From positions 62,001 through 126,000 of the forward strand of contig NZ_CP095412.1 in the NCBI RefSeq assembly GCF_023016265.1: 64,000 bases of DNA, in the 5' to 3' direction. The translations under genes and the position numbers were made by a program. Of this stretch, positions 3,458-54,177 are shown in pieces. Under the pieces are notes generated by a model, which was not told the origin of the DNA, did not search any database, and saw only the letters and a program-made list of their open reading frames with translations. Numbering within the stretch: the first letter of the stretch is position 1; every line of letters starts with the position of its first letter. The stretch is from Blastococcus sp. PRF04-17. Its GTDB lineage: Bacteria > Actinomycetota > Actinomycetes > Mycobacteriales > Geodermatophilaceae.

Positions 3458-4513
3458 ATGATTCGCACGCTCGACCTGTTTGCTGGCGCGGGCGGCCTGA
3501 GCCTCGGCTTCGAACAATCCGGTCTGGGTTTCCAGTCGGTGTTCGGCGTGGAGATCGAGCCTGCCGCCGCCCGTACCTACAAGCGGAACTTCGGGTGCCC
3601 CGTATATGACGGGCCCATCGAGGACTTGGAAAGCTTCGAGGACGCCGACGTGATCCTCGGGGGACCACCCTGCCAAGGCTTCTCACCCCTCGGACGCGAT
3701 CGCGACGACGTTTCCCGAGCACAGCTGAACGAGCTGTGGCAGCACTACTTGCGTGCGGTGCGTCAGGTCCGACCTCGAGCGTTCGTCATCGAAAATGTCC
3801 CGCAGTTTCAGAAGTCGGCGCAGTTTGCGAAGCTGCTACAGCTCCTCGAAAACGATCCCGATTTCAGCTGCTATAAGTACGCATACGGAGTGCTGAACGC
3901 GGCAGACTACGGGGCACCACAGGTGCGTCGTCGCGGAATTCTTGTCGCCGTCAGGGACGTAGAGAACGTGCCCTGGCCGCCGCCGGAGACGCACGGCCCG
4001 AACTCGCCCGAAGCCATCCCGTACGTCACGGTGCGTGAGGCTATTGGCGATCTTGCGCCTCGCCCCGCCTTGAACGAGGTCGGTGTCGACACGGACGGGA
4101 ATCAGGACCTGCACTTCGGTCGGCCGAACCCTCGACCCGCCTCGATGGAGCGCTACATGGCTATCCCGCCAGGCGGTAACCGGTTCGACCTGGCTAAGAA
4201 CCGTCCAGACCTGACTCCTCGTTGCTGGGCCGAGAAGCCTACGGGCACCACAGACGTAATGGGTCGACTGTGGTGGGATCGGCCGAGCGTCACGATCCGC
4301 ACCGAGTTCTTCAAGCCGGAGAAGGGGCGCTACTTGCACCCCGAGGCGCACCGTCCCATCACGCATCGCGAGGCGGCCCGGCTCCAATCCTTCCCGGACC
4401 ACTTCGAGTTCGAGGGGACGAAGATCGAGATCGCGCGGCAGATCGGCAACGCCGTGCCGCCGAAGCTCGGTGAGGCTTTGGCCCGTCACATCTTTGAGCT
4501 CATTCGCGAGTAG
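3458..4513 (+). CDS. DNA (cytosine-5)-methyltransferase 1
   Basis: A complete 351-residue C5 methyltransferase that transfers methyl from S-adenosylmethionine to a cytosine within a DNA target. Motif I is LDLFAGAGG (5-13), motif IV is GGPPCQGFSPLG with catalytic C72, motif VI is the ENV at 112-114, motif VIII is in QVRRRG near 155, and motif X is RQIGNAVPP near 330. The short variable region before motif IX holds the target-recognition part, so the target cannot be read off. A GGAGGT ribosome site supports the ATG. The Vsr-like gene starts 3 nt downstream, a pairing often seen with Dcm-type enzymes. It may protect against the NgoMIV-like nuclease next door, or serve as the methylase of the adjacent DISARM-like operon. 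Confidence 0.95.
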   Translation: MIRTLDLFAGAGGLSLGFEQSGLGFQSVFGVEIEPAAARTYKRNFGCPVYDGPIEDLESFEDADVILGGPPCQGFSPLGRDRDDVSRAQLNELWQHYLRAVRQVRPRAFVIENVPQFQKSAQFAKLLQLLENDPDFSCYKYAYGVLNAADYGAPQVRRRGILVAVRDVENVPWPPPETHGPNSPEAIPYVTVREAIGDLAPRPALNEVGVDTDGNQDLHFGRPNPRPASMERYMAIPPGGNRFDLAKNRPDLTPRCWAEKPTGTTDVMGRLWWDRPSVTIRTEFFKPEKGRYLHPEAHRPITHREAARLQSFPDHFEFEGTKIEIARQIGNAVPPKLGEALARHIFELIRE

Positions 4514-5865: not shown

Positions 5866-5965
5866 AACGACACCATTTCACGCAGCAACCGCGGGATCAG
5901 GCCGCCCTGCTGGGTCGTTGCCGCTTTGTGGTGAGTCGTAAGCAAACAGCTCCCCTTGGTCCGGC

Positions 5966-5971
5966 TAGCGT
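5966..5971 (+). promoter_or_regulatory. -10 box TAGCGT for leaderless methyltransferase 2
   Basis: TAGCGT lies 6 nt before the GTG at 5978, the spacing of a leaderless actinobacterial transcript. It favours 5978 over the GTG at 5972 or the ATG at 5999 as the start. No Shine-Dalgarno is present. Confidence 0.55.
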
Positions 5972-5977
5972 GTGGCT

Positions 5978-7104
5978 GTGTCGGGGGAACGCTTCACCAT
6001 GCTCGATCTCTTCGCCGGCTGCGGGGGCTTACGCGGGGGTTCCTGGACGAAGGCTCGTTCGACACTGCTGGGGCCGTCGAGAAGGACTTTGCGGCTGCAG
6101 CGACGTACGCGGCAAATTTCGACCCGATCGCCGCCCACACCTTCGTCGGGGACATCGCGGACTACCGCGACGTCCCGCGAGTGGACCTCGTGATCGGCGG
6201 TCCGCCCTGTCAGGGGTTCTCGGCGCTTGGGAGGCGTGACCCCGATGACGTGCGGAACCAGCTGTGGCGGGAGTTCGTCCGCGTCGTGCGGGAGTCGGAC
6301 GCGCAGATGTTCGTGTTCGAGAACGTTGATCGCTTTGCTCGGACGCCAGAGTTCGAGCTGCTCCGACGAGCTGCCCACGCGGGCGGCGAGCTGTCGGAGT
6401 TCCGGACACAGGTCTTCCGCTTGAACGCCGCCGACTTCGGCACGCCCCAGAAGCGGATCCGAACCATCGTGATCGGGTCACGAATCGGATCCGTTGCCGA
6501 GCCCGTTCAGACACACGCGAAGGTCCCCGTCGGTGCGCTGTCCCGCTGGCGAGGCCTGCGCGAGGCGTTCCTTGAAGGTCCCGTGCGGCTGGAGCCCGAA
6601 GTGCGTGAGGTATGGCTGCCCGAGAGCACGGTGGACTTCCAAGGGGAGTCGGTCGAAGGAGCGTTCAAGCTTCACGATCTGCATTTGACACGGCAGTACG
6701 ACCTCACGTCGGAGATCCGCTACGCGCACATTGCACCAGGGCAGTCGCGCTTTCACCTGCCTGACGAGCTGCAGTACCCCTGCTGGCGCCGGCACACAAA
6801 GGGAGCCGGCGACGTATTGGGGCGTCTTGAGTGGGACAAGCCGGCCGTGACGATGCGGACCGAGTTTTTTCGTCCCGAGAAGGGCCGCTTTCTCCACCCT
6901 CAGTGGGAGAACGGCGGGGTGCAGATCAACCGCGCACTAACCCACGCAGAGGCCGCCGTCGCCCAGGGCTTCGATGATCGACACATGTGGTGTGGCAGCA
7001 AGGCCGCCATCGCCCGCCAGATCGGCAACGCCGTGCCGCCACCGTTGGCCGAGGCTGTCGCCGGTGTCGTAGCCCAACGGCTCACCGCCGGCGACGGCTA
7101 CTAG
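5978..7104 (+). CDS. DNA (cytosine-5)-methyltransferase 2, frame-broken in motif I
   Basis: The product is a second C5 methyltransferase of about 375 residues once frame-corrected. The first frame from 5978 gives MLDLFAGCGGL (motif I) and then derails. The correct continuation GFLDEGSFDTAGAVEKDF, motif IV GGPPCQGFSALG, ENVDRF (VI) and RQIGNAVPPPLAEAV (X) lie one frame away. The break is in the run of G at about 6023-6027: one more G would read CGGLTRGFLDEG, the normal family sequence. As written, no single frame carries both the S-adenosylmethionine-binding motif and the catalytic Cys, so the enzyme would be dead. It faces away from the restriction gene and was probably its protective partner. 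The 3' end overlaps the 214-residue gene by 4 bp. Confidence 0.88.
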
Positions 7105-7745
7105 TAGTCCTCGACCGCCGGTCGGGGGAACCACCCGTCGAGGGGCACATAGCCTAGATACACGTAGCCGTCGTCGCCCACCGGGCCGAACAATTCGCGG
7201 CTCTCGTTGATGTACACGGCTCCGCCGCCGGGCTTGAACCGCGCCCACTCGGAGACGTGCTGCGCGCAGTCGCTCATGTAGTTGCTGAGGAACTCCTTCC
7301 GCTCGGCGCCGTCGGAGCCGCGCACCTTCGCGTAGACGTCCTTGCCCGTCGCAGCGAGCGTGTATCGCATGCCTGCCCGGGGTCCCGCCCAAGGCTGCCC
7401 CGGGCGGAGCCCTCGGGGTGCCTCGGAGGAGAGTGTGCTTCCCTCGGACTCGAATCTCAGTGGGGCGTCGTACCGCCCGGCGTAGAGGGTCCGGCCCTCC
7501 CTCTTCAACAGCACGTGGCGCCACTCATTGATGGAGAACCACGTGGGCCGATCTTGTCCTGAGCATCGCCGAACCATCGCGCCCAGTTCCGGGTGCTTGT
7601 CCACGCCTGCCGCGCGGACCTCGACGCCGTCCCTGAAGGCGACGAGCTCGATGTCGCCCGCAGGGGTGACTCGGTAACGCCCGTTCCTCTTCTGGACCGT
7701 CGGCTCGAGCCAGGGGTAATCGACTTCCACGGATGCAGCGGTCAC
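7101..7745 (-). CDS. Uncharacterised 214-residue protein, last gene of the DISARM-like operon
   Basis: I do not recognise this family. The protein is soluble-looking, with no signal peptide, membrane segment or cysteine cluster, and I found no HxKx4D phospholipase motif, so it is not DrmC. It is rich in Tyr, Trp and Gly. Notable patches are RPTWFSINEWRHVLLKREG, YAGRYDAPLRFESEGSTL, KEFLSNYMSDCAQHVSEW and the C-terminal YLGYVPLDGWFPRPAVEDY. It starts at a GTG 28 nt after the corrected drmB stop, in the same direction, so it is almost certainly co-transcribed with drmB. It could be a specificity or scaffold subunit; that is inference from position only. Confidence 0.7.
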   Translation of the reverse strand: MTAASVEVDYPWLEPTVQKRNGRYRVTPAGDIELVAFRDGVEVRAAGVDKHPELGAMVRRCSGQDRPTWFSINEWRHVLLKREGRTLYAGRYDAPLRFESEGSTLSSEAPRGLRPGQPWAGPRAGMRYTLAATGKDVYAKVRGSDGAERKEFLSNYMSDCAQHVSEWARFKPGGGAVYINESRELFGPVGDDGYVYLGYVPLDGWFPRPAVEDY

Positions 7746-7773
7746 CGAGGCGTACGCCTGAGGAAAGACATGG

Positions 7774-9578
7774 TCAGACGTTCCTCCGAGCGGCTTCTTC
7801 GCGGATCGCGGTGATCAGGCCACCGAAGTAGCCCGGCGTCATCTCGTCGCCGACGACGAGGACGCGGTCGAGGAGGACGTTACTGCCCTCGCAGGACGTC
7901 TCCGCCACCAGGCTGCACCCATGACAGGCGGCCAGATTGAGGCTGCCGAGGCCCTGCCCGAGGCTCTCTCGACACACCGGGTCGGCCGAGCACCAGGCAG
8001 CGTTCTCCAACGCCGCGACGACGCTGCGTGCGAGCCGCGGCTCTTCCCCTGTCGCACCAACCCCCCGAGGGTGCCCTCGGCGTCGCCGGCCGCTGTGTAC
8101 ACCAGCAGGCCCGCCTGGCCGGCAGGCCCGGGCGAGGCGTACACGCGCTCTCGCAGGGAGGCGGCCGAATAACCGCAGGAGAAGGCCAGCTGTCGCATGA
8201 GGAGGTGAGCGAATGTGTGAACAAGCAGGAAGCGCGGGCTGACAGGCGTGAGCCGGGAACCGATAAGGCTCTCCTGGCGCCTCCGCTCCAGCTTCGCCGC
8301 ACGTTCCACCACGGAGGGCTCCGTCTCCCACCTGGCGACGGCGTCCTGGTCAAGGGCGAGGAATATGCCCTCGCCGAACGACTCGACCGCCGGCAGCCAC
8401 CGCTCACGGATCCGTGGTCCGAGGTCGACGGGCACGAGGTCGGCGTCCAGGGCATAGCGACGGAAGCCGTGCTGCACGCGGATCTCGCGCAGCCGGTGCA
8501 CGAGGACGACGTCCTCTACCAGGTCGGACAACTCGTCCTCGACGCGGTCCGACGGCTTGGTCACGATCGTGGACGGCGAGATGACGAAGTCCCGGCTTCC
8601 GGTCCGGTCGTCCGGGTCGTCACCTACCTGCTGGAATGCCTGCCACTCGTCGGCAAGCAGGCCGGCCCGGGTCTCGAGCAGCTCGTCGGCCGAGACAGTT
8701 CCGGCCTGGGCAACCTGCAGGACGCGGTCCGGGGAGACGCCGAGGTCCTCGGCGATCAACCCGATGAGTACCGATGCGCGAGGTCCGGCCGGGGCCGAGG
8801 CCACGTCTTCAAAATTGCGGTGTTGACGAATCTCCGTGTCGTGGTCACGTGGCGGTCGTGCGGGCTCGGGGATGTCCAGCGCCGTGGTCGTCTCGGCCAT
8901 GGTGACGTTGGTGGCTCCCCGCTGGGCGACTTCGACACGCTCGTCGCAAGCCGGGAACCCCCCTCGCTGCCAGGGCTGTTTGCCGCTGCAACGCACGCCG
9001 ATCCGCTTCAAGGAGCCTTTCGCCGTCAGGTCGCCGAGGTGCCGGCGCGCCTTGCAGGTCTCACACCGGATGACCAGGCTGGCCAGTCCTTGGGAGCCGC
9101 CTTCACGCGTCTCGAATCGCAGCTTTTGGTACCGGCACTTCCGTTGGTCCTCAGTGTCGGACTCCGAATGAGCCCAGGTGTCCCATGGGACGTCCATCGC
9201 GTGCCCGCGGCGGGTGCAGACGGCGATGAACCGCATCGGGACCAGATGTCCGTCGCACGCGGGGCAGGCTGGAGGCTTCCCCCTCTCCTCCTGGGGACTC
9301 GAACGGTGCATACGCCGGCAGTTCTGGCAGAACAGCCAGCGGGGGAATCGCTCGTACCTGAGACCGGGAGCCTTGCTCGACGGTTCGGCAGGTGAGCTCG
9401 GCGGTGAGCGCAGTTCCTTCACGCCGAGCTTTTCCTCCAGCCTCGGGGACTCGACTCGGACGGTGTCGTTGTACGGCCATTCGCTGATGTCGGTGGCCAT
9501 CAGCGACTCGCCGAGGACGTCAAGGATCGCGCCCACACCGAAGGGGCTGACGGTCTGATTGAGACGCAGCGACCTCAT
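7774..9578 (-). CDS. drmB: DrmB-type DUF1998 protein (DISARM core), frame-broken near the C-terminus
   Basis: About 601 residues once corrected. The N-terminus (LNQTVSPFGVGAILDVLGES) matches the conserved start of DrmB. Zinc-ribbon cysteines follow (FCQNC near 83, CPAC near 104, then CETC and more). DUF1998 is seen in FAHLLMRQLAFSCGYSAASL near 459, and the C-terminal cysteine cluster in LAACHGCSLVAETSCEGSN near 553. In DISARM, DrmB forms a complex with the DrmA helicase that binds phage DNA. The frame breaks in a 4-base run at 8046-8049; one more base joins VRQG to EEPRLARSVV. Uncorrected, the frame ends at 7839 with a nonsense tail. The ATG at 9578 overlaps the drmA stop as ATGA. Confidence 0.87.
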
Positions 9579-12500
9579 CGACCGGTCTCCCCGATTGCGA
9601 GTACGCGGACTTGTCGGTCCACCGAGCGCATCGAGTGCATCGTCTCCCAGCCGTCCTTCCGTTCGCCGAACTCCTTGAGCAGCGCCTCTCCCTTCGGGGA
9701 GCGGTAGCGCAGCTTCTCCCCGCGCGCCGCCGCCTCGGACGCACGGTGGTCCCACTCGTTGACGAGCCGCTGCAGTTCTTCCGTCACCCGCTGGACCTCG
9801 TCCGGGTCGGCGACCGCGGCCATCCCGCGGATGCGTTCCACGGCCGTCCTGACCCGCGGGTCGTCCGCCGAGAAGTTCCCGGCATCCTCGTTGGCGCGGA
9901 GCCCCACCCCGTGGCGCACCACCATCACCAGCGCCGCGCTGAGCGCCCTCTCACGCGAGGCCAGCGACCAGGGCGTCACGCTGGTCGGTTCGACGTGGCG
10001 GTAAAGCGCCTCGTGGTAGGCGCGGAACGACTCGTAGTGCGACCGGTCGCGTGGCTTGGAGGCACGCAGCAGTGTGACAACGAGGCCGGGCACGTCCCCG
10101 CGGCCGACCCGGCTGGTGGCCTGGATGTACTCCGAGGTCGTCTTGGGCTGACCGTTCATCAGCATGAGCCCGAGCCGGCTGATGTCGATGCCGACCGACA
10201 GCATGTTCGTCGTCGCCAGGAGGTCCACCGCTTCGACGTGATCGGCCTCGCGTTCCAGTTGGGCGAGGATCTGCGGCAGCTGCTCCGGCCGGACGTTGCT
10301 CGTCAGCTCCACCACGCCGTCGCGCTTGAGCTTGCGGCTCGGGTGCTCGGGGCTCGATCGAGCGAGGAGCATGCTCTCGACGTCGTCCCGGGCGATGGTA
10401 ACCGTACGTCCCAGCTCGCGCAGGCTGTTGTTGTAGGCGACGACCGTCCAATATGCGTCCTTGGCCGGACCCTCCAGGTCCAACTGCTCGGGCCCCTGCA
10501 GCAGGGCCGTGCAGGCCAGCACCGTCGCGAACGCCTGCGTGTGGGCCTGCGGCATGAGGCCCATGTAGAGGCGACCCGGCTTCGTGCGGTCGGTGACGGC
10601 GAAAAAGCTGTTGTCAGCGCTGAGGCCGCTCGGCGGGAAGAGCGCCACCTCCGTGCCGTACAGGCTGCGTACCTGGTGGTCCGCTGCCCGGATGGTGGCC
10701 GTGGAGGCGACGACCTTCGGTCGTGTGCCATTCCAACCGAGCAATCCCTGCACAGCCGACTCGTAGAGGGCGACGGTCGTCCCGAGCGGACCGGAAAGCA
10801 GGTGCAGCTCGTCCTGGATGACCAGGCTCGGTGCGTCGAAAGGGACACTGTTCAGGCCCAGGAGGGAGCCCGCAGCCTCGAGCCAGGGCAGGCGGGCCAA
10901 CTTGTCAACCGTGGCCACGAGCAGCGTGGGCGGGTGGTCGAAGATTTCTTCGTCCACCACCTGCACGGGCAGCGAGCTGTGAAACCAGCACTCGTCGTGG
11001 GGGCAGAACAGCTCAAATGTCGACTTCGTGGTCCGGACGCCGTAGGCGGCGTCCTTGGAGCGCTTTTCCGGGAACAGCGGCGTCCCGCACCAGGGGCAAT
11101 CCTGGATCTGGTAGGGGCTCACCGGCGCCTGGGCCTTCTTGAGGTCGATCGCCTGGTTGTGGGCCGTCTCGTAGTCGTTCGGCGTCGTGCCGCTGCCGAC
11201 CCACAGGCCGATCGAGAAGGAAGGTGTGTGGTCGAGTGCCGGGTGATCGTTCCTCAGCTGCTCGAGTGCACAGATCAATGTCGCGGCCCGCTGGAACTGC
11301 TGCGTCGTGAGCAACCGCAGGGTGTAGCGGGTGAGGACGGCGGTGCCGCCGCCGGCCAGTCCCCGGTCGAGCCGGCGCCGGATCATCTCGTAGGCGGCCA
11401 GCCCGAGGTACGCCTCGGTCTTCCCACCACCCGTCGGGAACCAGATGAGGTCGACGGTCTCCCGGTCGGGGTGACTGCCGTCGGTCATCGACGGCAGGGA
11501 CAGAAGGATGAAGCCCAGCTGGAACGGACGCCACGTGGGCTCACGCTGTTCGAGACGTGAGGGGAGCGGTCGCCCGAACTCGCCGGGACGCTTTTCGACA
11601 TGGGCGCTCTGCAGCATTTGCTGTCGCATCGCGGCGTTTGCCAGTCGGAAGGCCAGGAGTGCTCTTGCATCGGTGCGCAGCAGAGTGACACCCGCGCGCA
11701 TCCGGTCCTCGGCCGCGCGGATCCGGGAGACCAGCCGGGATGCGGCGTCGCGGTGCTGCGCCGGCAACGTGTCGATCTCCGCGTCTCGGGCGTCGGCCCA
11801 GGTCGTGTAGGCGTCCACGAATGCATCGAGGTCGGCGCACAAGCCCTCGGCGGCGACGTGCTCGTCCGCCAACCGGGCCAGTGACAACGCCGGCAACGCC
11901 AGTTCTGGCGGATGGGTCATCGCCGGTACCAGGGCCGTCGGCAGCATCTCCGTCTCCACCTCGGTGACGGACCCGCCAGGGGACGGGGCCCAGTCCACGG
12001 AGCAGCCGTGCCCGACTCCGTACGCGCGACGGGCGCGGTACAGCAGCCGGAGCTCCTGCTCCTCCGGGTCGTCGCTGAGGTCGTCGGGGGAGGGGTACGG
12101 GTGCACGACACCGTCCACCGTTCGGCAGCTGACGTGCACCTGGAACAGGCACTTCTCAGTGGGCGGTGGAGTCTCTGCGTCGTCGTGGACGGCGGTGTTC
12201 TCCACCGCCACGGTGACCAGCCACCGATCAGCTGTCCGGCGCCACACCGACACGAGCCGCGCTCGTCCGTCGAACAGAGACCGGGACGTGGCGTCCGGGG
12301 CGAGCTCGACGTCGTCGGCCTGCATCGGGGTCCGGCGCCAGCCGTCCTCCTCCGTTTCGGAGCGCTCGTAACGACCGGCTTGCACGGTGCACCGGAGGCC
12401 GGTGGCGTCGTGGAGGAAGGACACCGCGGCCGAGGCCGGGTGCCACTCGTTCGCCAACTCCACCGGCTCATCGAGGTCGTCGTCAAGCGGCTCGTCGCCG

Positions 12501-12682
12501 AGCTTGGACCCGTCGTGGTGAACCGCCATCTGCGCCCGGGGGTAGAGGGTCCCCACCAGGTACTGCCGGTCGGGGCGCGTGCGGAGAACCTCGTGCTCCC
12601 CGTCCTGGGGGCCGAGGTACTGGTCGCGCAGGTAGTGGACGAAGCGCTCCCTGACCGAGGGGAGGTCGAGGTCAGCGGTCAC
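9575..12682 (-). CDS. drmA: DrmA-type DISARM helicase
   Basis: A 1035-residue superfamily 2 helicase of the DrmA family. Walker A is FPTGGGKTEAYLG near 414, followed by TRYTLRLLTTQQFQRA. A four-cysteine zinc ribbon (CPWCG near 529 and CPHDEC near 560) precedes the DEAH-like box VIQDELHLLSG near 624. VVASTATIR, then LLATTNMLSVGIDISR near 830, and QATSRVGRG near 857 complete the motor. The N-terminal 400 residues are the DrmA-specific region. In DISARM, DrmA with DrmB engages incoming DNA. The GTG start overlaps the preceding helicase gene by 11 bp and the stop overlaps drmB. The frame is intact. Confidence 0.9.
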   Translation of the reverse strand: MTADLDLPSVRERFVHYLRDQYLGPQDGEHEVLRTRPDRQYLVGTLYPRAQMAVHHDGSKLGDEPLDDDLDEPVELANEWHPASAAVSFLHDATGLRCTVQAGRYERSETEEDGWRRTPMQADDVELAPDATSRSLFDGRARLVSVWRRTADRWLVTVAVENTAVHDDAETPPPTEKCLFQVHVSCRTVDGVVHPYPSPDDLSDDPEEQELRLLYRARRAYGVGHGCSVDWAPSPGGSVTEVETEMLPTALVPAMTHPPELALPALSLARLADEHVAAEGLCADLDAFVDAYTTWADARDAEIDTLPAQHRDAASRLVSRIRAAEDRMRAGVTLLRTDARALLAFRLANAAMRQQMLQSAHVEKRPGEFGRPLPSRLEQREPTWRPFQLGFILLSLPSMTDGSHPDRETVDLIWFPTGGGKTEAYLGLAAYEMIRRRLDRGLAGGGTAVLTRYTLRLLTTQQFQRAATLICALEQLRNDHPALDHTPSFSIGLWVGSGTTPNDYETAHNQAIDLKKAQAPVSPYQIQDCPWCGTPLFPEKRSKDAAYGVRTTKSTFELFCPHDECWFHSSLPVQVVDEEIFDHPPTLLVATVDKLARLPWLEAAGSLLGLNSVPFDAPSLVIQDELHLLSGPLGTTVALYESAVQGLLGWNGTRPKVVASTATIRAADHQVRSLYGTEVALFPPSGLSADNSFFAVTDRTKPGRLYMGLMPQAHTQAFATVLACTALLQGPEQLDLEGPAKDAYWTVVAYNNSLRELGRTVTIARDDVESMLLARSSPEHPSRKLKRDGVVELTSNVRPEQLPQILAQLEREADHVEAVDLLATTNMLSVGIDISRLGLMLMNGQPKTTSEYIQATSRVGRGDVPGLVVTLLRASKPRDRSHYESFRAYHEALYRHVEPTSVTPWSLASRERALSAALVMVVRHGVGLRANEDAGNFSADDPRVRTAVERIRGMAAVADPDEVQRVTEELQRLVNEWDHRASEAAARGEKLRYRSPKGEALLKEFGERKDGWETMHSMRSVDRQVRVLAIGETGR

Positions 12683-14260
12683 CGGAAGCCTCCGAGGAAA
12701 GTGGGCGCTGGGCGATCTGTGTCCAGGCGTGAGGTGAGACTCCGAGCCAGAGACTGACTCGGGGGCGGGTCATCGCGACGTACAACCGGGCGCGAGAGAC
12801 CGGGTCATCGACCTCGTCGACATCAACGACGCAGACGTGGCCGGCCTCGAGGCCCTTGAAATCCGATGCAGTCACCAGCGTCGCGGTGCCGGGGACCGGT
12901 GCGCCCGATACCGACGCGAGCCTCCCGCTGCGGTAGGCCCTGGAGGTGACAGCGGCGCTGTCCTCCACGCGTTGCTGCAGGGTCACGACAGCGACATCCG
13001 CCATGTCGACGTCCTCGCGGCGGAGCGCCTTGAGCCGCTGGTCGAGGAGCTTGGCGCTCGCCTCGTCGTCCGGGCACTGCTCCCAGACGACCTGCGGCCC
13101 CTCGCCGGCGCGGGCCACGCCGATGTCGGCCCCCGTGGTGAGCTGGGTCTGCGTCACCACCTGAGCCGTGTTCCGGCAGTTGTAGGGCAGGTCGACGACG
13201 ACGGCCGAGGCCGCCAGCTCGTCGAAGGTGGCCTGATCGAAGACGCCGTCCACGTTGGCCTGGTTGTTGGGATCGCAGAAGGCGCGCCAACGTCCGTCGG
13301 TCAGCCCCCGTCGACGAGCTGGTCGAGCACCAGGAGGCTGTCGACGTCGAACAGGTCCTGCGCCTCGTCCACAACCAGCACGTCGGCCGGCGCTCTCGAC
13401 GGGTCCAGCCGGTGGAACGGCATCACTGATGCCCCCGTCCCGTCGAGCCTCCCCTGAAGGAGCTCCGCGAGGCGCGGTGAGCGACAAGTCACCAGCACCG
13501 ACGCTCCCGCGGAGGCAGCCCGTCTAGCCGTCTCCGCGGCGAGGAGCGTCTTGCCCGAACCGGCGCCACCGACGCAGAGGACGCGGCGGTTGCGCTCGGC
13601 TCCGACGAGCAGGTCGTACTGACGCTCGGCCAGACGGACGTACTCCTGCTCGAGCTGCGGCCCGAGGGCGCCCAGGGTGGGGACCCAGTCGAAGTCCGGA
13701 CGGAGGACCCGCATCAGGTCCCCGTAGCCACCGCCGCGGACAGGACGCGACATGGTCGAGTGAGCATGCGTACGGGCGTCCGAAAGTGCCTTGGCCAGGC
13801 GCGTCACGGACATCGACTCATGTCCCGCGTACTGACTCGGGTGCCACTCGACGTCGGACGGCAACATCTGGTCGGGAGTCACGACCAGGTAACCCCAGGC
13901 GACATCCAGCGAGGGGAGTCGCTCTTGAACCCGGCGCTGCAGCGCGAACATCGCGCTGCGGGCCTGCTCGAAGGGACCTTCCCGCTTCTCGTTCGTATGC
14001 CCGTAGCGGTCGGTAAAGTTCCACAGCCCGTTCCGACGTCCGAGCCGGCCGCCCTTGACCTCGACGACGAGCACCGTGTCGTCCCAGATTACGAGGAAGT
14101 CGATTTCGGACATCCGCTTGTACTCGTGCACAGGGAGGTGAACGGAGTAGAGCGCGGCGACAGGAGTGGGAAGGTCGAGCTGTTCGAGAAGTTGGGCGAC
14201 GCGGAGCTCCGCCTGGCTGTCGACATGCCCGAGAACCGACGTGGCCGGGACAAGCTTCAC
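12672..14260 (-). CDS. NERD-domain nuclease fused to a UvrD-like (SF1) helicase, frame-broken
   Basis: About 529 residues once corrected. The NERD (nuclease-related) domain covers about residues 15-130, with LHSE-like helices, IDFLVIWDDTVLVVEVKGG (the D...ExK core near 72) and PFEQARSAM. A helicase follows, with Walker A GGAGSGKTLLAAE near 238, motif II VLVVDEAQD near 300, and SF1B-like C-terminal parts including ASDFKGLEAGHVCVVDV and LYVAMTRPRVSL. The frame breaks in the run of C at 13305-13309; adding one base joins LDQLVDGG to LTDGRWRAF. The GTG at 14260 is chosen because it overlaps the stop of the upstream gene as GTGA. NERD-helicases are DNA-processing enzymes often found with defence genes. 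It is not a usual DISARM component. Confidence 0.87.
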
Positions 14261-17200
14261 GTCGACGAGCTCCCGTTCCGCTCCCAGAGGTGGTCGAACT
14301 CCTTGTAGGCGAGGCTCTCGCCGAACTGACCGAAGGTGTCCTCGACGTTGACGACGAGGCACTCCGCGTTTCCGCCGTTCTTCTCGCCCCGCAGCCCGCG
14401 ACCCACCATCTGGATATATGCGTTGGGACTGAAGGTCGGGCGGGCCACATACAACGCGCGAATCTTCGGGGCGTCGAAGCCTTCGGTCAGGACGCTGCAG
14501 TTGGTCAGGACTCGAATCTCACCGTTCTTGAACCCGTCGATGGCCCGGCGCCGCTCGTGGATGCGTGTAGCACCGCTGACTGCAGCGGAGGTGATGCCCT
14601 GGTACTTGAGCAGGGCGGCCAACACCTGGGCGGACTGCACCGAGGCGGTGAAGACCAGGACAGGCCAGTCCGGGGGCAGGTCGCAGATGTCCTCGAGCAG
14701 GCGTTGCATTCGGGCCTCGTCGCGCCCGATCCGTTCGAGAACTTGATTGGGCAGCAGCCGCAGCTTCTTGGTCCGGCGCTGCTCGTCAGCGTTGAGGACG
14801 AAGTCCGAACCTCGCAAGATTCGGTGCTCAATGTGTGACAGCACGCCCATCTGCTGTAGGACATCATAGGCGTCTCTGTCATCGTCCGCGAACGCATCCC
14901 ACTTGACGTGGTCGAAGCGTGCGGCGAGGCGTTCGGTGGCGATCTCGCTCTGGCCCTTGAATGGTGTGGCGGTCAACCCGAGCATTGGGCGGCCTGTGCG
15001 GCGGCCCTCGATGCCCAGCCAGCGCAGGGTGGCGGTGATGTCTGTCCCGATCGCGCTGTGGGCCTCATCGATGACCACTGCGGACGGCCGGCTCAACCAG
15101 CGGTAGTCATCCTTCTCCCGGCAGACGGCCAGCTTTGCGTCCGTCGCAACGATGACGGACACGTCGTCCTCTGTCTCGGCCACGTCGTTCCGGCTCCACA
15201 GGCGGCCGATCCGCAGCGGCCTGTGATCGCCGAACTGGCGCCACACCGTGCTCCACGTCTGCACGGCTTGCTCACACAGCTCTTCGCTCTGGGCGATCCA
15301 CAACAGCGGTCCGCGGAAGCCGTCCTCGGTGAAGGCCCGAACGATGGCCTCCACCGTCACGCGGGTCTTGCCGGCGCCGGTCGGCAGGTACAACATCGCC
15401 CGCCCGCCGTCGTCAAGGAGCTCTCGGATTTTCTCGGCGTACCGCTCCTGATACCCGTGCAGGGGGTCAAGCTCGGGTGGGCCGAGGACCGTGACATCGG
15501 CATCGAGGTGAGTTCCGGCCGTGCCGGCGTACTCGACCGGGAATCCCAGCTCGCTCATGAACTTGATCGCGGGCGGCGTCCCCGCCCATTGCTTTGGGAC
15601 CGGTAGCCCTGCGTCCTCAAGGTCCCTCCTCGCTGCCCACAGTGCGTCGTAGCCGTGCACGTCCAGGAACAGCCTCGCGACGTCCAGCTCGCTGAGGTCC
15701 TGTCCCATTCGGCGGAGTGATTCGAGCAGGCCCTTCGGCAAGCGCTTCTCCAGCGCTGCAGCGTCCAGGAGGACCAGAAGCTTCGCCGCATGGTCGCGCT
15801 CGAGGCGGCAGGCGTGGATCGTCTTGTTGACCTGCTCCGTTTGCGCGTCCCGAAGGATCTGGTCGACGGTCGTCGCCGTGAGCGGGACCTCGAACTTCTC
15901 GGCCAGGCGCTCGAGCAGTTCCTCGTCGCTGAGCGTGTCCACGTGGTAAACCGTGTCGCCGTCGACCGCGATGTCCTCGGCACGGGCGTCGACGCCGTCC
16001 GGTGCTGTGACCTGGCGGACAACGCTGCTGCACTCGACCAGTCGGAGACCGTCGAGTCGATTGACCGCCAGAGGGCGCAGACCGCGGTAGCGGTCGAGGA
16101 GAGCGACCGGCGTGCGCGGCGCGTCAACGAGTACCTCGACTCGCAGGTGGGCAGAGGCCGGCCGGCAGCCCCATCGAGCGCTGAGGGCAGTCGCGGCCTC
16201 GTCGTTCACGACGACATGGGGAAGGTCCCGGGCAGCGAGCTCGCGAGCCTCCTCCTGGTCCTGGGCGAGGTAGAGATCGGACGGACGCACGAGGGCACCC
16301 ACCCCGGAGCTGATCGCCGGAAGAGCAGCAGGGGTCTCCTTCTGCGGCAGATGGGTCGCTGCCTCGGCCAACAGGCGCCCGAGGACGGAAGGATCGCTCG
16401 CTGTCGGCAGGTGCGTGAGGAACTCCCGCCAGGTGTCGACGGGCACGGCCCCGAGGTCACCGACGAGCTCGAGCATGTCCGCCGCCGGGTTTAGTGCGAC
16501 GGGGAGGTACGGAGCGAAGTGGCCCAATGACCGCGCGAGCGTCTGCCGGGTCGGCCGGGGACCCCACGCGGTGTCGAGGCTGCCGAAGCGCTGCACCGCC
16601 CACATGTGCGGAGCGGGGCAATTGAGTGGGGGGAACTGGTCGGGCCGCTTGTTGTGGACGAGCTGCCACTGACGAGGTTGCTCCGCCTCGAGTAGCTCCC
16701 TCGTCCACGTGAGCCGCGCGGTGTCATCACCGGTCTCCGCAAAGCGGCGGAGGAGCTGGAGCCCGGTGAGCCCTTCCGTGCGATCGAAGACGAGAGCGAG
16801 GGGCTCGGGGCGGCGCCCGGTCGTCACCTGAAGGTACAGCTCGCGTCGGGTGTTCCGGTACTCCTGGAAGGTCGCGTCCCGGAGCAGCGCGGTACTGACG
16901 AGCGGCCTCACCCCGACGCCGAGCAGCTCCAGGATGCCCAGGTGCAGCCCGTGGACGGCATCGTCGAGGACAAGAGCCGGATCGTTCGGCTCGACCAGAC
17001 CGGCGACAACTACCTCGCTGGGGTCGTACCAGGCGCCGTCACGTGCACGAACTCGCAGCAGGCCACCACGCCCGAGGTGTTCGACCAGGACGTCACGGGC
17101 GTCGGCGCCGCCGACCTTGTCGACGAGATGCCACAGGGCTCCCCACTCGGAGTGGCCCCACTTGCGGTCCACGGAGTCGACGAGCCGCCGGAGCTCCTCA

Positions 17201-18924
17201 AGCGGGTCGACCTCCTGGAAGCCTTGCTCGCGGAGCACCTCGGTGACACCTGGGTGCTCGCGAAAGGAGGGGAGGATAACGGCCAACCCACCTACCGTGC
17301 TGCTCACCTCCCCACCGAGAAAGAGTTCCTCGACCGCTGCCAGTGGGTGTAGACGACCGGCCGTGTCAGGCACCACGGCAGCGCGCTCCATGTCTCTGCG
17401 CGTCGGCTGATCGATGACGGTTCCGAAGACCAGGACCGCGGCTGCGCAGTCTTCCTCGGTGAAGCCTGAGGCGGGCACGAGCCGCTCGATCCACGCCTTG
17501 GCCCCCAGCTCGCCACGCGCCTTTGCGCCGTCCTCCTCGCGGACCAACGTCCTCAGTCGGGCGCGTCGGGTGGCAGACGTGTAGCAGGAGGGATGGGGCG
17601 CGGCCTTCGGACGCCGAGGAGCCATGTGCCAGGTGATGTGCGTGGCCGGCTCCAGTCGAAGTTCGAAGTGCGGGTACTCAAGGTCTTCGGGCATGCGGAG
17701 GATGCCATCGGCGTCCGGGATGCAGTCCGCGTAGCGGGCCAGGCTGGGGATCTCGCGGGTGAGGTACTTGTCTGCAAAGTTTGACGCCTCGCGGCCACGC
17801 GCCGGCAGGTAGTCGAAGTGTCGCGCGGGATCGTCGGCGGTCCGAAGCTCTGGTAGCGCCTCGACCACCATGTTGGCGACCACGCGTAGCAGTTCCTCGT
17901 TGAAGGCGCCGGGCAGCAGATTGGTCCGGTCGTCGTTGACCTGCCAGGGCGCGTTGATGATCCCGCGGGTCGACGAGACGTCCTTGAGAGGGAAGTACGC
18001 CCAGAACTCGCCGCGTTCGCGGGCGTCCGACAGCGGCGCCGCGTACGAGACGCGCACCTCATCGCGTCGAATGGCCTCACCTACGCCCGACAACGCCGCC
18101 TCGGACAGCCGGTGATTGGTGTGCTGGACCCACCAGGGTGCGGGGTCGTCACCGGCGCGGGTGAGGAGGTATCGGTGGTCGCCCTGGAACTCGCAGGTGT
18201 AGGTGCTCTCGAAGCTGGTGCCGGCCTGCCTCTCGACGCCGAGGTGCAGCACCTGAACGTGGTCGGCGAACAGCAGGAATTCCGCCGGGAACTTGAGCAG
18301 CTCGTCGACGAGGCGCTCGATCTGCGACGCGAGAGGCAGGCGCACGACCGTGGTCGCCCAACTCATGAGGTGGCGGAGCATGTCGTCGCTCGCTGCCTCG
18401 GTCTCGGGATCGAGCAGCAAGGGCGTGCGGAGAACGGGGTAACGCACAGCGTGGGGATCGATGGCGGAGAGGGCTGCCTGTGCAAAGTCGGAGTCGAATC
18501 CGAAGGAGACGGTCCTGCTGAAGACCTGGGGACGGTCGCTGACCCCGAGTACCGACTTGAACCCGAGACCGAACCGTCCGATCTCCTCGCCGCGCTTGGG
18601 GCTGAGGAATGCCTGGCATACGGCCTCCAGGCCCTGCTGTGTGAAACCCTCGCCCTCGTTGGCGCAGTAGAGGGTGTCCCCGACGAGTCGGACCTCCACG
18701 CGCCCGACCTGACCGGTCTTGCTGAGCGCGTCGGCGGCGTTCTGGATCAGCTCTAGGAGTTGCCGCTCGGCGTAGCCGCCGGTGCGGTAGCTGTCCTCCT
18801 GGTTCCCGTGCTCGGCCACCAGGAGCCGATTCGCGCGGTAGGCCTCCATGGCCCGCTCGCGGTGGTCCACGATCCACTGCTGGAGGTCAGCCTGTGGCCG
18901 CGTCCATTCACCCCGTGTGCTCAT
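14257..18924 (-). CDS. Sacsin/Hsp90-like ATPase fused to a superfamily 2 helicase
   Basis: A 1555-residue two-engine protein. The N-terminal GHKL ATPase domain is of the sacsin type: QLLELIQNAADAL (near 55) carries the metal-binding Asn, and GEGFTQQGLEAVCQAFLSPK and IGRFGLGFKSVLGVSD (to about 130) form the lid and glycine loops. A long middle of about 1000 residues has no fold I can name. The C-terminus is a complete SF2 helicase: YLPTGAGKTR near 1181, VIDEAHSAIG near 1285, LGLTATPF, VLTEGFDAPK and IQMVGRGLRGEK near 1508. It is the first gene of the operon, with a 4-nt overlap into the NERD helicase. I do not know it as a named defence protein; sensing of foreign DNA or a protein remodelling role is conjecture. 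Confidence 0.85.
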   Translation of the reverse strand: MSTRGEWTRPQADLQQWIVDHRERAMEAYRANRLLVAEHGNQEDSYRTGGYAERQLLELIQNAADALSKTGQVGRVEVRLVGDTLYCANEGEGFTQQGLEAVCQAFLSPKRGEEIGRFGLGFKSVLGVSDRPQVFSRTVSFGFDSDFAQAALSAIDPHAVRYPVLRTPLLLDPETEAASDDMLRHLMSWATTVVRLPLASQIERLVDELLKFPAEFLLFADHVQVLHLGVERQAGTSFESTYTCEFQGDHRYLLTRAGDDPAPWWVQHTNHRLSEAALSGVGEAIRRDEVRVSYAAPLSDARERGEFWAYFPLKDVSSTRGIINAPWQVNDDRTNLLPGAFNEELLRVVANMVVEALPELRTADDPARHFDYLPARGREASNFADKYLTREIPSLARYADCIPDADGILRMPEDLEYPHFELRLEPATHITWHMAPRRPKAAPHPSCYTSATRRARLRTLVREEDGAKARGELGAKAWIERLVPASGFTEEDCAAAVLVFGTVIDQPTRRDMERAAVVPDTAGRLHPLAAVEELFLGGEVSSTVGGLAVILPSFREHPGVTEVLREQGFQEVDPLEELRRLVDSVDRKWGHSEWGALWHLVDKVGGADARDVLVEHLGRGGLLRVRARDGAWYDPSEVVVAGLVEPNDPALVLDDAVHGLHLGILELLGVGVRPLVSTALLRDATFQEYRNTRRELYLQVTTGRRPEPLALVFDRTEGLTGLQLLRRFAETGDDTARLTWTRELLEAEQPRQWQLVHNKRPDQFPPLNCPAPHMWAVQRFGSLDTAWGPRPTRQTLARSLGHFAPYLPVALNPAADMLELVGDLGAVPVDTWREFLTHLPTASDPSVLGRLLAEAATHLPQKETPAALPAISSGVGALVRPSDLYLAQDQEEARELAARDLPHVVVNDEAATALSARWGCRPASAHLRVEVLVDAPRTPVALLDRYRGLRPLAVNRLDGLRLVECSSVVRQVTAPDGVDARAEDIAVDGDTVYHVDTLSDEELLERLAEKFEVPLTATTVDQILRDAQTEQVNKTIHACRLERDHAAKLLVLLDAAALEKRLPKGLLESLRRMGQDLSELDVARLFLDVHGYDALWAARRDLEDAGLPVPKQWAGTPPAIKFMSELGFPVEYAGTAGTHLDADVTVLGPPELDPLHGYQERYAEKIRELLDDGGRAMLYLPTGAGKTRVTVEAIVRAFTEDGFRGPLLWIAQSEELCEQAVQTWSTVWRQFGDHRPLRIGRLWSRNDVAETEDDVSVIVATDAKLAVCREKDDYRWLSRPSAVVIDEAHSAIGTDITATLRWLGIEGRRTGRPMLGLTATPFKGQSEIATERLAARFDHVKWDAFADDDRDAYDVLQQMGVLSHIEHRILRGSDFVLNADEQRRTKKLRLLPNQVLERIGRDEARMQRLLEDICDLPPDWPVLVFTASVQSAQVLAALLKYQGITSAAVSGATRIHERRRAIDGFKNGEIRVLTNCSVLTEGFDAPKIRALYVARPTFSPNAYIQMVGRGLRGEKNGGNAECLVVNVEDTFGQFGESLAYKEFDHLWERNGSSST

Positions 18925-19482: not shown

Positions 19483-20414
19483 TCGTTGCCTACGTCGATC
19501 TGCACAAGCAGGAGCACGGGGTCGAGCCGATCTGCCGGGTCCTCACCGAGGCCGGCGTCAAGATCGCCCCGAGCACCTACTACGCCCACCGGACCCGGTC
19601 GCCCTCGGCCCGGTCGATCACCGACGCGGCCACCACGGCGGTGATCGAGAAGGTGCACGCCGACAACTACGGGGTCTATGGCGCCCGCAAGCTGCATGCC
19701 GAGCTGCACCGGAAGGGGCATCGGGTGGCCCGCTGCACCGTCGAGCGGCTGATGCGCAGCGCCGGGCTGCGCGGGATCAGCCGGGCCAAGGGCCCGCGGA
19801 CAACGCTCCCGGGCGCTGGCCCGGACACCCGCCCGGATCTGGTCGACCGGGCGTTCACCGCGACCGGCCCGGACCAGCTGTGGGTTGCCGACATCACCTA
19901 CTGCCGCACCTTCTCCGGCTGGGTCTACGCCGCGTTCGTCATCGACGTGTTCTCCCGCCGGGTGGTGGGGTGGCAGCTGTCGAAGTCCCTACGGACCGAC
20001 CTGGCACTCGACGCCCCGGAGATGGGCATCTGGACCCGCCGGCGGACCGGCCGCGACCTCGGCGGACTCATTCACCACTCGGACAAGGGAGTCCAGTACG
20101 TTGCCGTGCGCTACACCCAGCGCCTGGCCGAGGCCGGCGCGGTCGCCTCGGTCGGCTCCACCGGCGACTCCTACGACAACGCGCTGGCCGAGGCGTTCAA
20201 CTCGCTGTTCAAGGCCGAGCTGGTCCGCAACCGCGGTCCGTGGAAGGGCATCGACGACCTCGAGATCGCCGTCGTCGAGTACATCGACTGGTTCAACCAC
20301 CGACGCCTGCACGGCGAGATCGGCCTCGTTCCACCGGCCGAGCACGAGGAGCACTTCCACCGGCACAACACCGTGGCGGCTACCGTCGCCGCGTCAGTTC
20401 CGAGCCTCCACTGA
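19479..20414 (+). CDS. IS3-family transposase OrfB (made by -1 frameshift from orfA)
   Basis: The integrase-like catalytic half of the transposase. In the -1 frame relative to orfA the sequence picks up at LIVAYVDLHKQEHGVEPICRVL. It includes the HTH_21 region YGVYGARKLHAEL, then the DDE core: Asp in WVADITYC, Asp in IHHSDKGVQYV, Glu in YDNALAEAFNSLFKAEL. The end WFNHRRLHGEIGLVPPAEHE is typical. All catalytic residues are present, so the element looks competent. There is no separate good start; the coordinate given is where the frame becomes useful inside the overlap. Confidence 0.88.
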   Translation: MIVAYVDLHKQEHGVEPICRVLTEAGVKIAPSTYYAHRTRSPSARSITDAATTAVIEKVHADNYGVYGARKLHAELHRKGHRVARCTVERLMRSAGLRGISRAKGPRTTLPGAGPDTRPDLVDRAFTATGPDQLWVADITYCRTFSGWVYAAFVIDVFSRRVVGWQLSKSLRTDLALDAPEMGIWTRRRTGRDLGGLIHHSDKGVQYVAVRYTQRLAEAGAVASVGSTGDSYDNALAEAFNSLFKAELVRNRGPWKGIDDLEIAVVEYIDWFNHRRLHGEIGLVPPAEHEEHFHRHNTVAATVAASVPSLH

Positions 20415-53184: not shown

Positions 53185-54177
53185 GTGTCCGACGACTTGA
53201 TTGTGGCGCGGAACCCCGATCCGGACTCCTCGCTGCCCTATCTCGTCCGCGTGCCGCTCGGCCCGAGCGGCATCGTCATCAAGGCGCGCGAGACGTGGCC
53301 GCGGGAGTCCAAGGTCTACTGCCACCGAGCTGCTGAGTGGCCCGAGGACGCCGAAATCCTGGAACGGCACCCCGTGCGCTCGTGCACGCGTCGCGGCCCC
53401 GCCATCGACCTCGTGCTCGACCGCGCCCGCCAGAACCGCTCGCAGCTCGTACTCACCCAGGCGCGGGGCCGGGAGGTCATCTTCTGGCAGTCGCCGTCCA
53501 CCGCCAAGCAGGCCCGCCCGGGGGTGCACCTGCCGACCGCCCGGGCGGCCGGGCAGGTACTGGAGATCGTCGTCGACAGCGGCGAGAAGTACCCCTACGC
53601 ATTCGGGCACCAGCAGGCGACCACGACCCGTCGGCGGCTCGATGCCGGCGACTACGCCGTCGAACTGGACGGCGTCGTGGTCGCCGCCGTCGAGCGCAAG
53701 AGCCTGCCGGATCTCGCCGCCAGCTTGCTGTCGGGGCGGCTCACCTACGCGCTGTCGGACCTCGCGGCTCTGCCGAGGGCCGCCCTCGTCGTCGAGGACC
53801 GCTACAGCCGGATGTTCAAGCTCGAACACGTCTCCGGCGCGCGCGTGGCCGAGGCACTGGCCCAGGCGCAGGTCCGCTTCCCGTCGGTCCCCATCGTCTT
53901 CTGCGAGACGAGGCCGCTGGCCCAGGAGTGGACATACCGGTGGTTGGGTGCCTGCCTCGCCGAGCTGTCGGCGGCCGCGGCCACGAGGGACGTCGAGGAC
54001 TCGTTCGCCTCGGCCGGCGACGTGGCGCCCGCTCGGCAGCGGGCGAGAGCCGCCGACGTGCGCGCGTGGGCTCGTGACCAGGGCCTGGACGTGAGCGATC
54101 ACGGCCGGATCCCCGCCGAAATCCTCCGCCGCTACGAGTCCGAGCAGGCCGCGGGCTCAGACGGTCAGCAGCCCTGA
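53185..54177 (+). CDS. ERCC4/XPF-type nuclease with an Lsr2-like DNA-binding tail
   Basis: A 330-residue protein. Residues about 125-245 form an ERCC4 nuclease domain with VVDSGEKYPY, GDY (155-157) and VERKSLPDL, an exact GDx(n)ERKx3D active site (E170, R171, K172, D176). The C-terminal 35 residues (ADVRAWARDQGLDVSDHGRIPAEILRRYE) match the DNA-binding domain of Lsr2, the actinobacterial xenogeneic silencer that binds AT-rich DNA. The first 120 residues have no name I can give. The combination suggests a structure-specific nuclease guided to AT-rich or foreign DNA. The last 21 bp overlap the convergent helicase gene. Confidence 0.88.
   Translation: MSDDLIVARNPDPDSSLPYLVRVPLGPSGIVIKARETWPRESKVYCHRAAEWPEDAEILERHPVRSCTRRGPAIDLVLDRARQNRSQLVLTQARGREVIFWQSPSTAKQARPGVHLPTARAAGQVLEIVVDSGEKYPYAFGHQQATTTRRRLDAGDYAVELDGVVVAAVERKSLPDLAASLLSGRLTYALSDLAALPRAALVVEDRYSRMFKLEHVSGARVAEALAQAQVRFPSVPIVFCETRPLAQEWTYRWLGACLAELSAAAATRDVEDSFASAGDVAPARQRARAADVRAWARDQGLDVSDHGRIPAEILRRYESEQAAGSDGQQP

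Follow-up and report, generated by a model that had tools for sequence, protein, structure and literature searches.

A putative DISARM variant with a sacsin-type ATPase-helicase and no detected DrmC in actinobacterial genomes

DISARM, reportedly defined by Ofir in 2018, comprises a class 1, with drmD and drmMI, and a class 2, with drmE and drmMII. In the Serratia system, as described in PMC9142583, resting DrmAB is idle and is loaded onto DNA that is unmarked and has single-stranded 5' ends. The stretch of 64,000 nucleotides from Blastococcus sp. PRF04-17 analysed here (contig NZ_CP095412.1, positions 62,001 to 126,000; hereafter, the window) carries an operon in which drmA and drmB follow a gene for a sacsin-type ATPase fused to a helicase (SacHel) and a NERD-UvrD gene. 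This operon is likely to represent a chromosomal actinobacterial variant of DISARM, named here sacsin-DISARM, that would be guided by methylation and would work without DrmC. Its core would be sacHel-(NERD-uvrD or uvrD)-drmA-drmB, typically accompanied by one or two C5 methyltransferases and often by Vsr, but not by DrmC, the phospholipase D (PLD) nuclease. The proposal was supported by the gene content, the fixed gene order, tight co-inheritance, the absence of DrmC from the DNA searched, the association with methyltransferases and the conserved catalytic motifs; the patchy occurrence of SacHel, its HSP90/sacsin fold and the lower guanine plus cytosine content of the window at 3-20 kb were also counted in its favour.

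As in DISARM, DrmA and DrmB were adjacent and in the same order, and a methyltransferase lay nearby. The SacHel loci differed from DISARM in lacking DrmC, in the addition of SacHel and mostly of a UvrD helicase, and in a DrmA without an insert of about 37 residues. According to PMC12458937, ARMADA type II also combines a YprA-family helicase with a UvrD/GajB-like helicase, another superfamily 2 (SF2) motor and a methyltransferase; nevertheless, its YprA helicase carries its own canopy and Vsr-type nuclease, its methyltransferase is PglX-like and its SF2 motor BrxHII-like, whereas sacsin-DISARM encodes DrmA and DrmB separately, its methyltransferases, as far as found, are of the C5 type and its SF2 motor is fused to an HSP90-type ATPase. 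Assignment to ARMADA type II was rejected on account of the separate DrmA and DrmB genes and the C5 methyltransferases, and TALON and BRIGADE were likewise considered and rejected as families. Residues 10-414 of SacHel matched residues 5-411 of the 1538 of TmtA (184.7 bits), which we take to be the stand-alone system Tiamat, but the remainder of the 1555-residue SacHel did not match TmtA and this candidate was also rejected. NERD domains fused to a UvrD-type motor are found as well in RTasNERD-Hel of PADLOC and in C3a187 NERD+UvrD; PADLOC files such proteins under other systems (DRT for RTasNERD-Hel), whereas the fusion of sacsin-DISARM is bound to SacHel, DrmA and DrmB.

No paper combining DISARM and sacsin was found in the literature searched, which did not extend to subscription papers, most preprints and supplements. 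DISARM, NERD and helicase were mentioned together in PMC12458937 (ARMADA, BRIGADE and TALON) and PMC10952713, and the operon was described neither in the accessible parts of these two papers nor in those of PMC9142583, PMC3710099, PMC12839542, PMC10482375 and PMC9523054. PADLOC, Pfam and NCBIfam name no system made up of the two genes upstream of drmA. Within the literature searchable, the SacHel-DrmAB operon is apparently undescribed.

Recurrence and co-inheritance of the operon

The initial annotation had placed five minus-strand genes at 7101-18924, with overlaps of 4, 11 and 4 nucleotides followed by a gap of 28, and the coordinates obtained here agreed (overlaps at 14257-14260, 12672-12682 and 9575-9578; gap at 7746-7773). 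The features were as follows:

14257..18924, minus strand: SacHel, 1555 amino acids; sacsin/HSP90-type GHKL ATPase, HSP90-middle-like region, long stretch with no recognized domain and RadD-like SF2 helicase
13301..14260, minus strand: NERD-UvrD, first part; NERD nuclease domain and beginning of the superfamily 1 (SF1) motor
12672..13310 (start approximate), minus strand: NERD-UvrD, second part, in another reading frame; UvrD C-terminal motif
9575..12682, minus strand: DrmA, 1035 amino acids, short form; NF038325, PDB 7s9v
7839..9578 (homology ends at about 8,050), minus strand: DrmB, main part, DUF1998/MZB protein; NF038324
7774..8050 (start approximate), minus strand: DrmB tail, in another reading frame; end of NF038324
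7101..7745, minus strand: orphan, 214 amino acids, accessory and not core; no PADLOC, Pfam or NCBIfam match

Recurrence was analysed in 90 distinct loci, namely the window, 80 loci of named genomes (the best 80 of 526) and nine non-duplicate loci from a sample of genomes of the window's order; L019 and L050, which lie on the same contig, were counted once, and no other duplicates were detected by SacHel sequence. In 86 of the 90, DrmA and DrmB lay behind SacHel on the same strand, which supported the earlier suggestion of a DISARM-related variant, and both the sacsin-helicase and the NERD-UvrD genes recurred beside drmA-drmB far beyond the window. The four exceptions were L120, whose contig ends after UvrD, L051 and L081, with drmAB nearby on the opposite strand, and L026 (genome G067). 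Three subtypes were distinguished by the gene between SacHel and DrmA: NERD-UvrD in subtype I (37/90 loci, window included), UvrD without NERD in subtype II (43/90; 42 with drmAB and one ending before drmA) and no gene in subtype III (7/90). Locus L100, which holds a second sacsin gene, was counted in subtype II since its UvrD gene is present.

In the order sample of 200 genomes, 13 matched SacHel at an expectation value (E) of 1e-40 or better, ten of them at full length; with two SacHel genes in G178, there were 11 full-length loci, window included. In a class sample of 394 genomes, 18 matched at 1e-100, one of them (G253) by the helicase half only, and the other 17 held 18 full-length SacHel loci. 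The DrmA profile matched 62 of these 394 genomes, DrmA lay within 3 kb of 17 of the 18 full-length SacHel loci (the exception being G067), and by a hand count SacHel-linked loci made up 17 of the 72 DrmA loci. About one in four DrmA loci of the class could therefore be overlooked or wrongly named by an annotation expecting DrmC, DrmD or DrmE. The 80 named loci came from 14 named actinobacterial families, with Streptomycetaceae the commonest (32), and 79 bore actinobacterial names, L085 being labelled Planococcus (65% guanine plus cytosine, G+C); since these are only the best 80 of 526, the system may not be confined to Actinomycetota.

Co-inheritance was assessed with Mantel correlations in the loci where all three open reading frames (ORFs) were picked, that is, 32 of the 37 of subtype I and 34 of the 43 of subtype II, the window being left out; a single DrmB ORF of at least 560 amino acids was not picked in 5 of the 80 named loci, including one truncated at the end of its contig. 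The values of r in subtypes I and II, respectively, were 0.98 and 0.99 for SacHel/DrmA, 0.98 and 0.97 for SacHel/DrmB and 0.98 and 0.98 for DrmA/DrmB, and 0 of 999 permutations reached any of them. This distance correlation places SacHel on the same footing as DrmB. That SacHel is an unrelated gene which happens to lie next to an ordinary DISARM core within a defence island is very unlikely in view of the fixed order, the r of 0.97-0.99 of SacHel with both DrmA and DrmB, the failure to find DrmC in any of the 90 loci and the overlap of SacHel and NERD-UvrD by 4 nucleotides.

Components of the system

The 1555-residue GHKL-ATPase/SF2-helicase fusion recognized in the initial annotation is one intact ORF, and both of its domain ends were matched by profiles. 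The N-terminus is of the sacsin type (NF047352, 73 bits for a cut-off of 50, residues 54-134), with a match to PF25794 beneath its cut-off (28.8 bits, 32.8 required). The C-terminus is an SF2 helicase (ResIII at 1155-1322, Helicase_C at 1415-1512, DEAD also matched), and the best equivalog model was RadD, with a score far beneath its cut-off. Pfam and NCBIfam scans gave no domain in residues 430-1150, and PADLOC (2023), Pfam and NCBIfam held no model describing SacHel as a whole. Residues E58, N62, D65, G116, G119 and G121, those of the GHKL ATP-site motif, were invariant across 51 sequences, and the key SF2 motif residues across 11. In a structural search, the predicted structure of residues 1-1150 (mean predicted local distance difference test, pLDDT, 89; predicted template modelling score, pTM, 0.57) matched HSP90/TRAP1 and SR1 of human sacsin; the TM-scores were low, as would be expected of flexible multidomain chains.

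Among plasmids and phages, 0 records had a single place covering at least 80% of SacHel. A Roseobacter plasmid (L186, 7554-11978) carries in a row a helicase resembling the C-terminal half of SacHel, an ATP-binding protein and a PLD protein. A second sacsin-type gene was found in the genome of the window (G000:C1:4499842-4500414), with 36% identity to SacHel residues 20-212 and an open frame of 1158 amino acids.

The NERD domain (PF08378, 42.9 bits, cut-off 22.1) and the UvrD C-terminal motif (PF13538, 29.3 bits, cut-off 27.4) of the NERD-UvrD gene proposed earlier are real, but the gene is split over two frames here; likewise, the three helicase motors ascribed to the operon hold for the family, but one of them is frame-broken in the window. 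The first part matched RTasNERD-Hel of PADLOC (55 bits), the second part resembled the second half of the L019 homologue (58%), and the D, ExK and Q positions of NERD were conserved in the five sequences compared. The subtype II UvrD model (pLDDT 88) was predicted to be UvrD/PcrA/Rep-like with a beta-rich C-terminal part. UvrD/PcrA/Rep motors came at the top of a structural search with this protein, and AdnAB, AddAB, RecBCD and SLFN11 were also among the 50 matches listed. No nuclease domain was found by Pfam in the four subtype II UvrD proteins scanned, and a fifth middle-slot protein, which follows SacHel in L026, had no Pfam match at all; subtype II may carry a nuclease of an unfamiliar kind. 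The subtype II operons of L089-L125, mainly from Streptomycetaceae, were often flanked by three gene families, present in 35, 26 and 29 of 81 loci, for which the one member scanned of each gave the PADLOC candidate PDC-M33A, PDC-M33C and no match, respectively.

The presence of DrmA and DrmB, both named in the initial annotation, was confirmed. DrmB scored 339.1 bits with NF038324 (cut-off 240), and ORF 7774-8331 matched the end of this model (75.2 bits). DrmA was clear (702 bits with DrmA of PADLOC) although its 902.5 bits with NF038325 fall below the curated 950; its residues 197 to 1028 aligned with the solved Serratia DrmA (PDB 7s9v, E 3.8e-153). The insert of about 37 residues before the QDELHL motif was absent from 87/87 DrmA proteins of SacHel loci and present in 16/16 DrmC-linked ones, the spacing between anchors being 17-22 versus 54-59 residues. 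This insert was rejected as the trigger loop, which is not the same region. Loss of the published autoinhibitory trigger loop is not claimed either, the region being present and somewhat shorter in SacHel loci (40-66 residues, median 48) than in the comparison DrmA (43-74, median 54).

A DrmC profile built from 13 actinobacterial DrmC proteins (one of them checked with PADLOC) matched 0 of the 90 SacHel loci, window positions 1-30000 included, 0 of 24 other DrmA loci and 16 of 16 DrmC-linked loci, those 13 being among the 16; such a profile would miss a PLD nuclease that is much diverged or encoded in another part of the genome. The 16 comparison loci were a convenience choice from 30 of this kind. 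In agreement with the earlier finding, DrmC and DrmD gave no match in the six frames of window positions 1-30000, and neither did DrmMI, so that the DrmD and DrmMI of DISARM class 1 are both missing there; DrmE, also reported as not found, had no match among the window proteins scanned, the whole window not having been run against its profile. In the family, DrmD-like genes were found in 7/90 and DrmMI-like genes in 5/90 SacHel loci, with scores far below those of class 1 loci, and five of each sat in the subtype without a middle helicase. Five of the seven subtype III loci carry, in divergent orientation, a DrmD-like SNF2 helicase and a type IIG/DrmMI-like methyltransferase (one member each scanned).

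Other DrmA loci showed neighbours of their own. In L142, L143 and L146, a protein of 507-690 amino acids lies directly before NERD-UvrD-DrmA-DrmB, where SacHel is not found; that of L142 gave a weak DrmE_C match (E 9.5e-4, beneath the cut-off). In L129, L133, L135, L138, L144, L148 and L149, DrmAB lies beside a protein of 420-605 amino acids of one cluster, whose L129 member has sigma-70 regions 2-4, and a UvrD-like gene was nearby in five of the seven; these loci may represent a relative of DISARM that is equipped with its own sigma factor. In L127, L128, L130, L132 and L137, DrmAB is followed by a protein of 936-1026 amino acids (with sigma-70 regions in L127), and four of these five loci have an additional protein, whose L128 member matches MzaE. 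The 'MzaA' matches of PADLOC in DrmA-linked genes of other loci span sigma-70 domains and were rejected.

Methyltransferases and the proposed mechanism

A C5 methyltransferase adjoins the operon, as the initial annotation had noted in calling it DrmMII-like and a possible self-marking enzyme; nevertheless, there are two such enzymes, their best PADLOC family is DruM2 and they belong with an NgoMIV-type set:

5956..7104, plus strand: C5 cytosine methyltransferase 1, convergent with the orphan (4-nucleotide overlap); PF00145
4942..5865, minus strand: NgoMIV-type restriction endonuclease, 307 amino acids; PF09015
4517..4969, plus strand: Vsr-type nicking endonuclease, 150 amino acids; PADLOC Vsr, PF03852 cluster
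3458..4513, plus strand: C5 cytosine methyltransferase 2, 351 amino acids; DruM2, MTase_II and DrmMII matches

Methyltransferase 1 scored 135 bits with PF00145, 245 with DruM2 and 110 with DrmMII, and methyltransferase 2 scored 309 with DruM2, 279 with MTase_II and 171 with DrmMII. The endonuclease matched PF09015 (77.3 bits, cut-off 23.2) over residues 169-279 only, that is, its C-terminal 110 residues or so, and Vsr matched PADLOC with 39.7 bits and clusters with a PF03852-carrying protein. The endonuclease and C5 methyltransferase expected of NgoMIV-type restriction-modification are thus both present, and the two methyltransferases, Vsr and the endonuclease together form, as predicted from their matches, an NgoMIV-type restriction-modification set. 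NaeI and NgoMIV share the site GCCGGC.

C5 methyltransferases (METHYLTRANSFERASES) were found in 74/90 SacHel loci, 1/16 DrmC-linked loci (p 6e-9) and 13/24 other DrmA loci. The corresponding figures were 59/90, 1/16 (p 9e-6) and 6/24 for Vsr, and 13/90, 0/16 and 1/24 for NaeI. The methyltransferase excess is relative to DrmC-type DISARM, with the DrmC-less DrmA loci without SacHel intermediate. In a FastTree tree of 124 methyltransferase rows, a clade of 42 held 14 rows within 3.5 kb of NaeI, the two of the window and unlinked rows, many of the latter from subtypes I and III; the subtype II enzymes were mostly divided between two other clades, and a locus often carried one enzyme from each. 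SacHel loci as a rule have a C5 mark, which may act for the SacHel system, for a restriction enzyme or for both.

In sacsin-DISARM, the C5 methyltransferases would mark host DNA, to judge from their neighbourhood, and DrmAB, idle at rest, would by analogy with Serratia load on unmarked DNA with 5' single-stranded ends. SacHel would form a dimer that clamps shut on ATP in the manner of HSP90, with an SF2 motor that travels along DNA and either licenses DrmAB or holds it, as its fold and motifs suggest. The UvrD motor would open the DNA and NERD, where present, as in the subtype of the window, would cut it, and the subtypes without NERD might block the DNA by unwinding it or translocating along it, or might rely on a nuclease from another source. 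The first two steps derive from published DISARM work and neighbourhood data, and the others from domain content.

A competing explanation keeps the defence role but assigns the C5 methyltransferases to restriction sets only, so that self and non-self would be read from DNA structure alone. It is a serious though less likely option: DrmAB prefers 5' overhangs with no sequence specificity, according to PMC9142583, 16 of the 90 loci had no C5 methyltransferase in the DNA covered (some being shortened by contig ends), and C5 enzymes also occur in 13 of the 24 other DrmA loci without SacHel. Against it stand the contrast between SacHel and DrmC-linked loci and the six loci (L065, L067, L070, L072, L073 and L082) in which the methyltransferase gene lies behind DrmB on its strand and NaeI is not present, other restriction enzymes not having been searched for.

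Several further observations weigh against sacsin-DISARM as proposed. The 13 methyltransferase-bearing DrmA loci that lack both DrmC and SacHel mean that the C5 enzymes are not SacHel-specific, and many of those of subtypes I and III share the NaeI-/NgoMIV-linked clade and may serve restriction enzymes alone. The insert of DrmA is missing also in 20 of 24 other DrmA proteins without SacHel. In a FastTree tree of 127 DrmA rows, the DrmC-linked proteins formed one group (16) and those of SacHel loci were split into two (45 and 42), the deep branches being partly unsupported. The tight distance correlation is equally expected from plain vertical descent. Finally, the SacHel of G067 (L026, L182) lies beside a YprA-like helicase ORF of 1786 amino acids and a UvrD helicase, and UvrD-DrmA-DrmB is found about 30 kb away on the contig without SacHel beside it; the parts of the system are therefore separable.

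A role in DNA repair or replication stress instead of defence would fit the RadD-like SF2 half of SacHel and the inclusion of the repair pair MrfAB in the YprA family (PMC12458937). It is nevertheless highly improbable given the patchy occurrence (18/394 class genomes), the DISARM-type DrmA and DrmB, the neighbouring C5 methyltransferases and restriction enzymes (NaeI in 13/90 loci, NgoMIV type in the window) and the lower G+C, which was 65-70% at 3-20 kb of the window, 73% in the first 2 kb and 70-76% at 20-34 kb.

To judge from these gene contents, DISARM seems to have a second way of working. A natural family without detected DrmC, whose HSP90-type ATPase-helicase is co-inherited with DrmAB, opens the working of DISARM to gene-removal tests. 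A bolder and decidedly tentative proposal is that of a separate DISARM class, in which an HSP90-like clamp and DNA translocase would replace the PLD nuclease as the obligatory partner of DrmAB and the UvrD-only and helicase-less forms would restrict by clamping and unwinding without a dedicated nuclease. If true, this would be an unusual instance of an HSP90-type machine working directly on invading DNA.

Frame breaks in the window and the orphan gene

Two of the core genes are not single frames in the window. NERD-UvrD runs over 13301-14260 and continues in another frame at about 12672-13310, and DrmB, taken as intact in the initial annotation, changes frame near 8,050, with a tail that extends to 7774. 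Of the 36 members of the NERD-UvrD ORF cluster, 35 have 505-756 amino acids, the exception being the 353-residue piece of the window; a cluster member is present in 28 of the 37 subtype I loci and an open ORF of 506-536 amino acids in four more, the remaining five having been left out.

Genes of three same-genus genomes with a match in the window were frame-broken there in 6/20, 4/13 and 6/22 cases, versus 0-2 of 13-26 genes between these relatives; conversely, 0/19, 2/10 and 1/22 of the window's own open ORFs were frame-broken in them. A gene of about 1960 amino acids (window 54160-60083), 84-87% identical in the three relatives, is split in two frames near 56,735 and is a likely marker of assembly errors. 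Furthermore, the completeness of the genome is 95.9% as one contig, whereas the same-genus genomes, in up to 90 contigs, reach 99-100%. The frame changes are therefore more likely to come from indel errors in the assembly than from real decay. That the operon is decaying or dead in this genome is rather unlikely on these grounds, although two breaks fall within four core genes, some relatives also carry broken genes (DrmB in L024, SacHel in L052), the orphan lacks the helicase partner of its other three loci and an IS3-like transposase ORF (19641-20414, named by eye from its translation) lies about 0.7 kb upstream of SacHel. Decay would also be compatible with sacsin-DISARM, which concerns the family.

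The orphan, counted earlier as the fifth member of the operon, did not keep this place: of the 80 other loci, L047, L052 and L076 alone had homologues (4/81 with the window). There each is preceded by a gene from a single cluster (692-722 amino acids; in L047, a DEAD-type helicase), which is missing from the window, so the orphan is probably the remnant of a separate gene pair.

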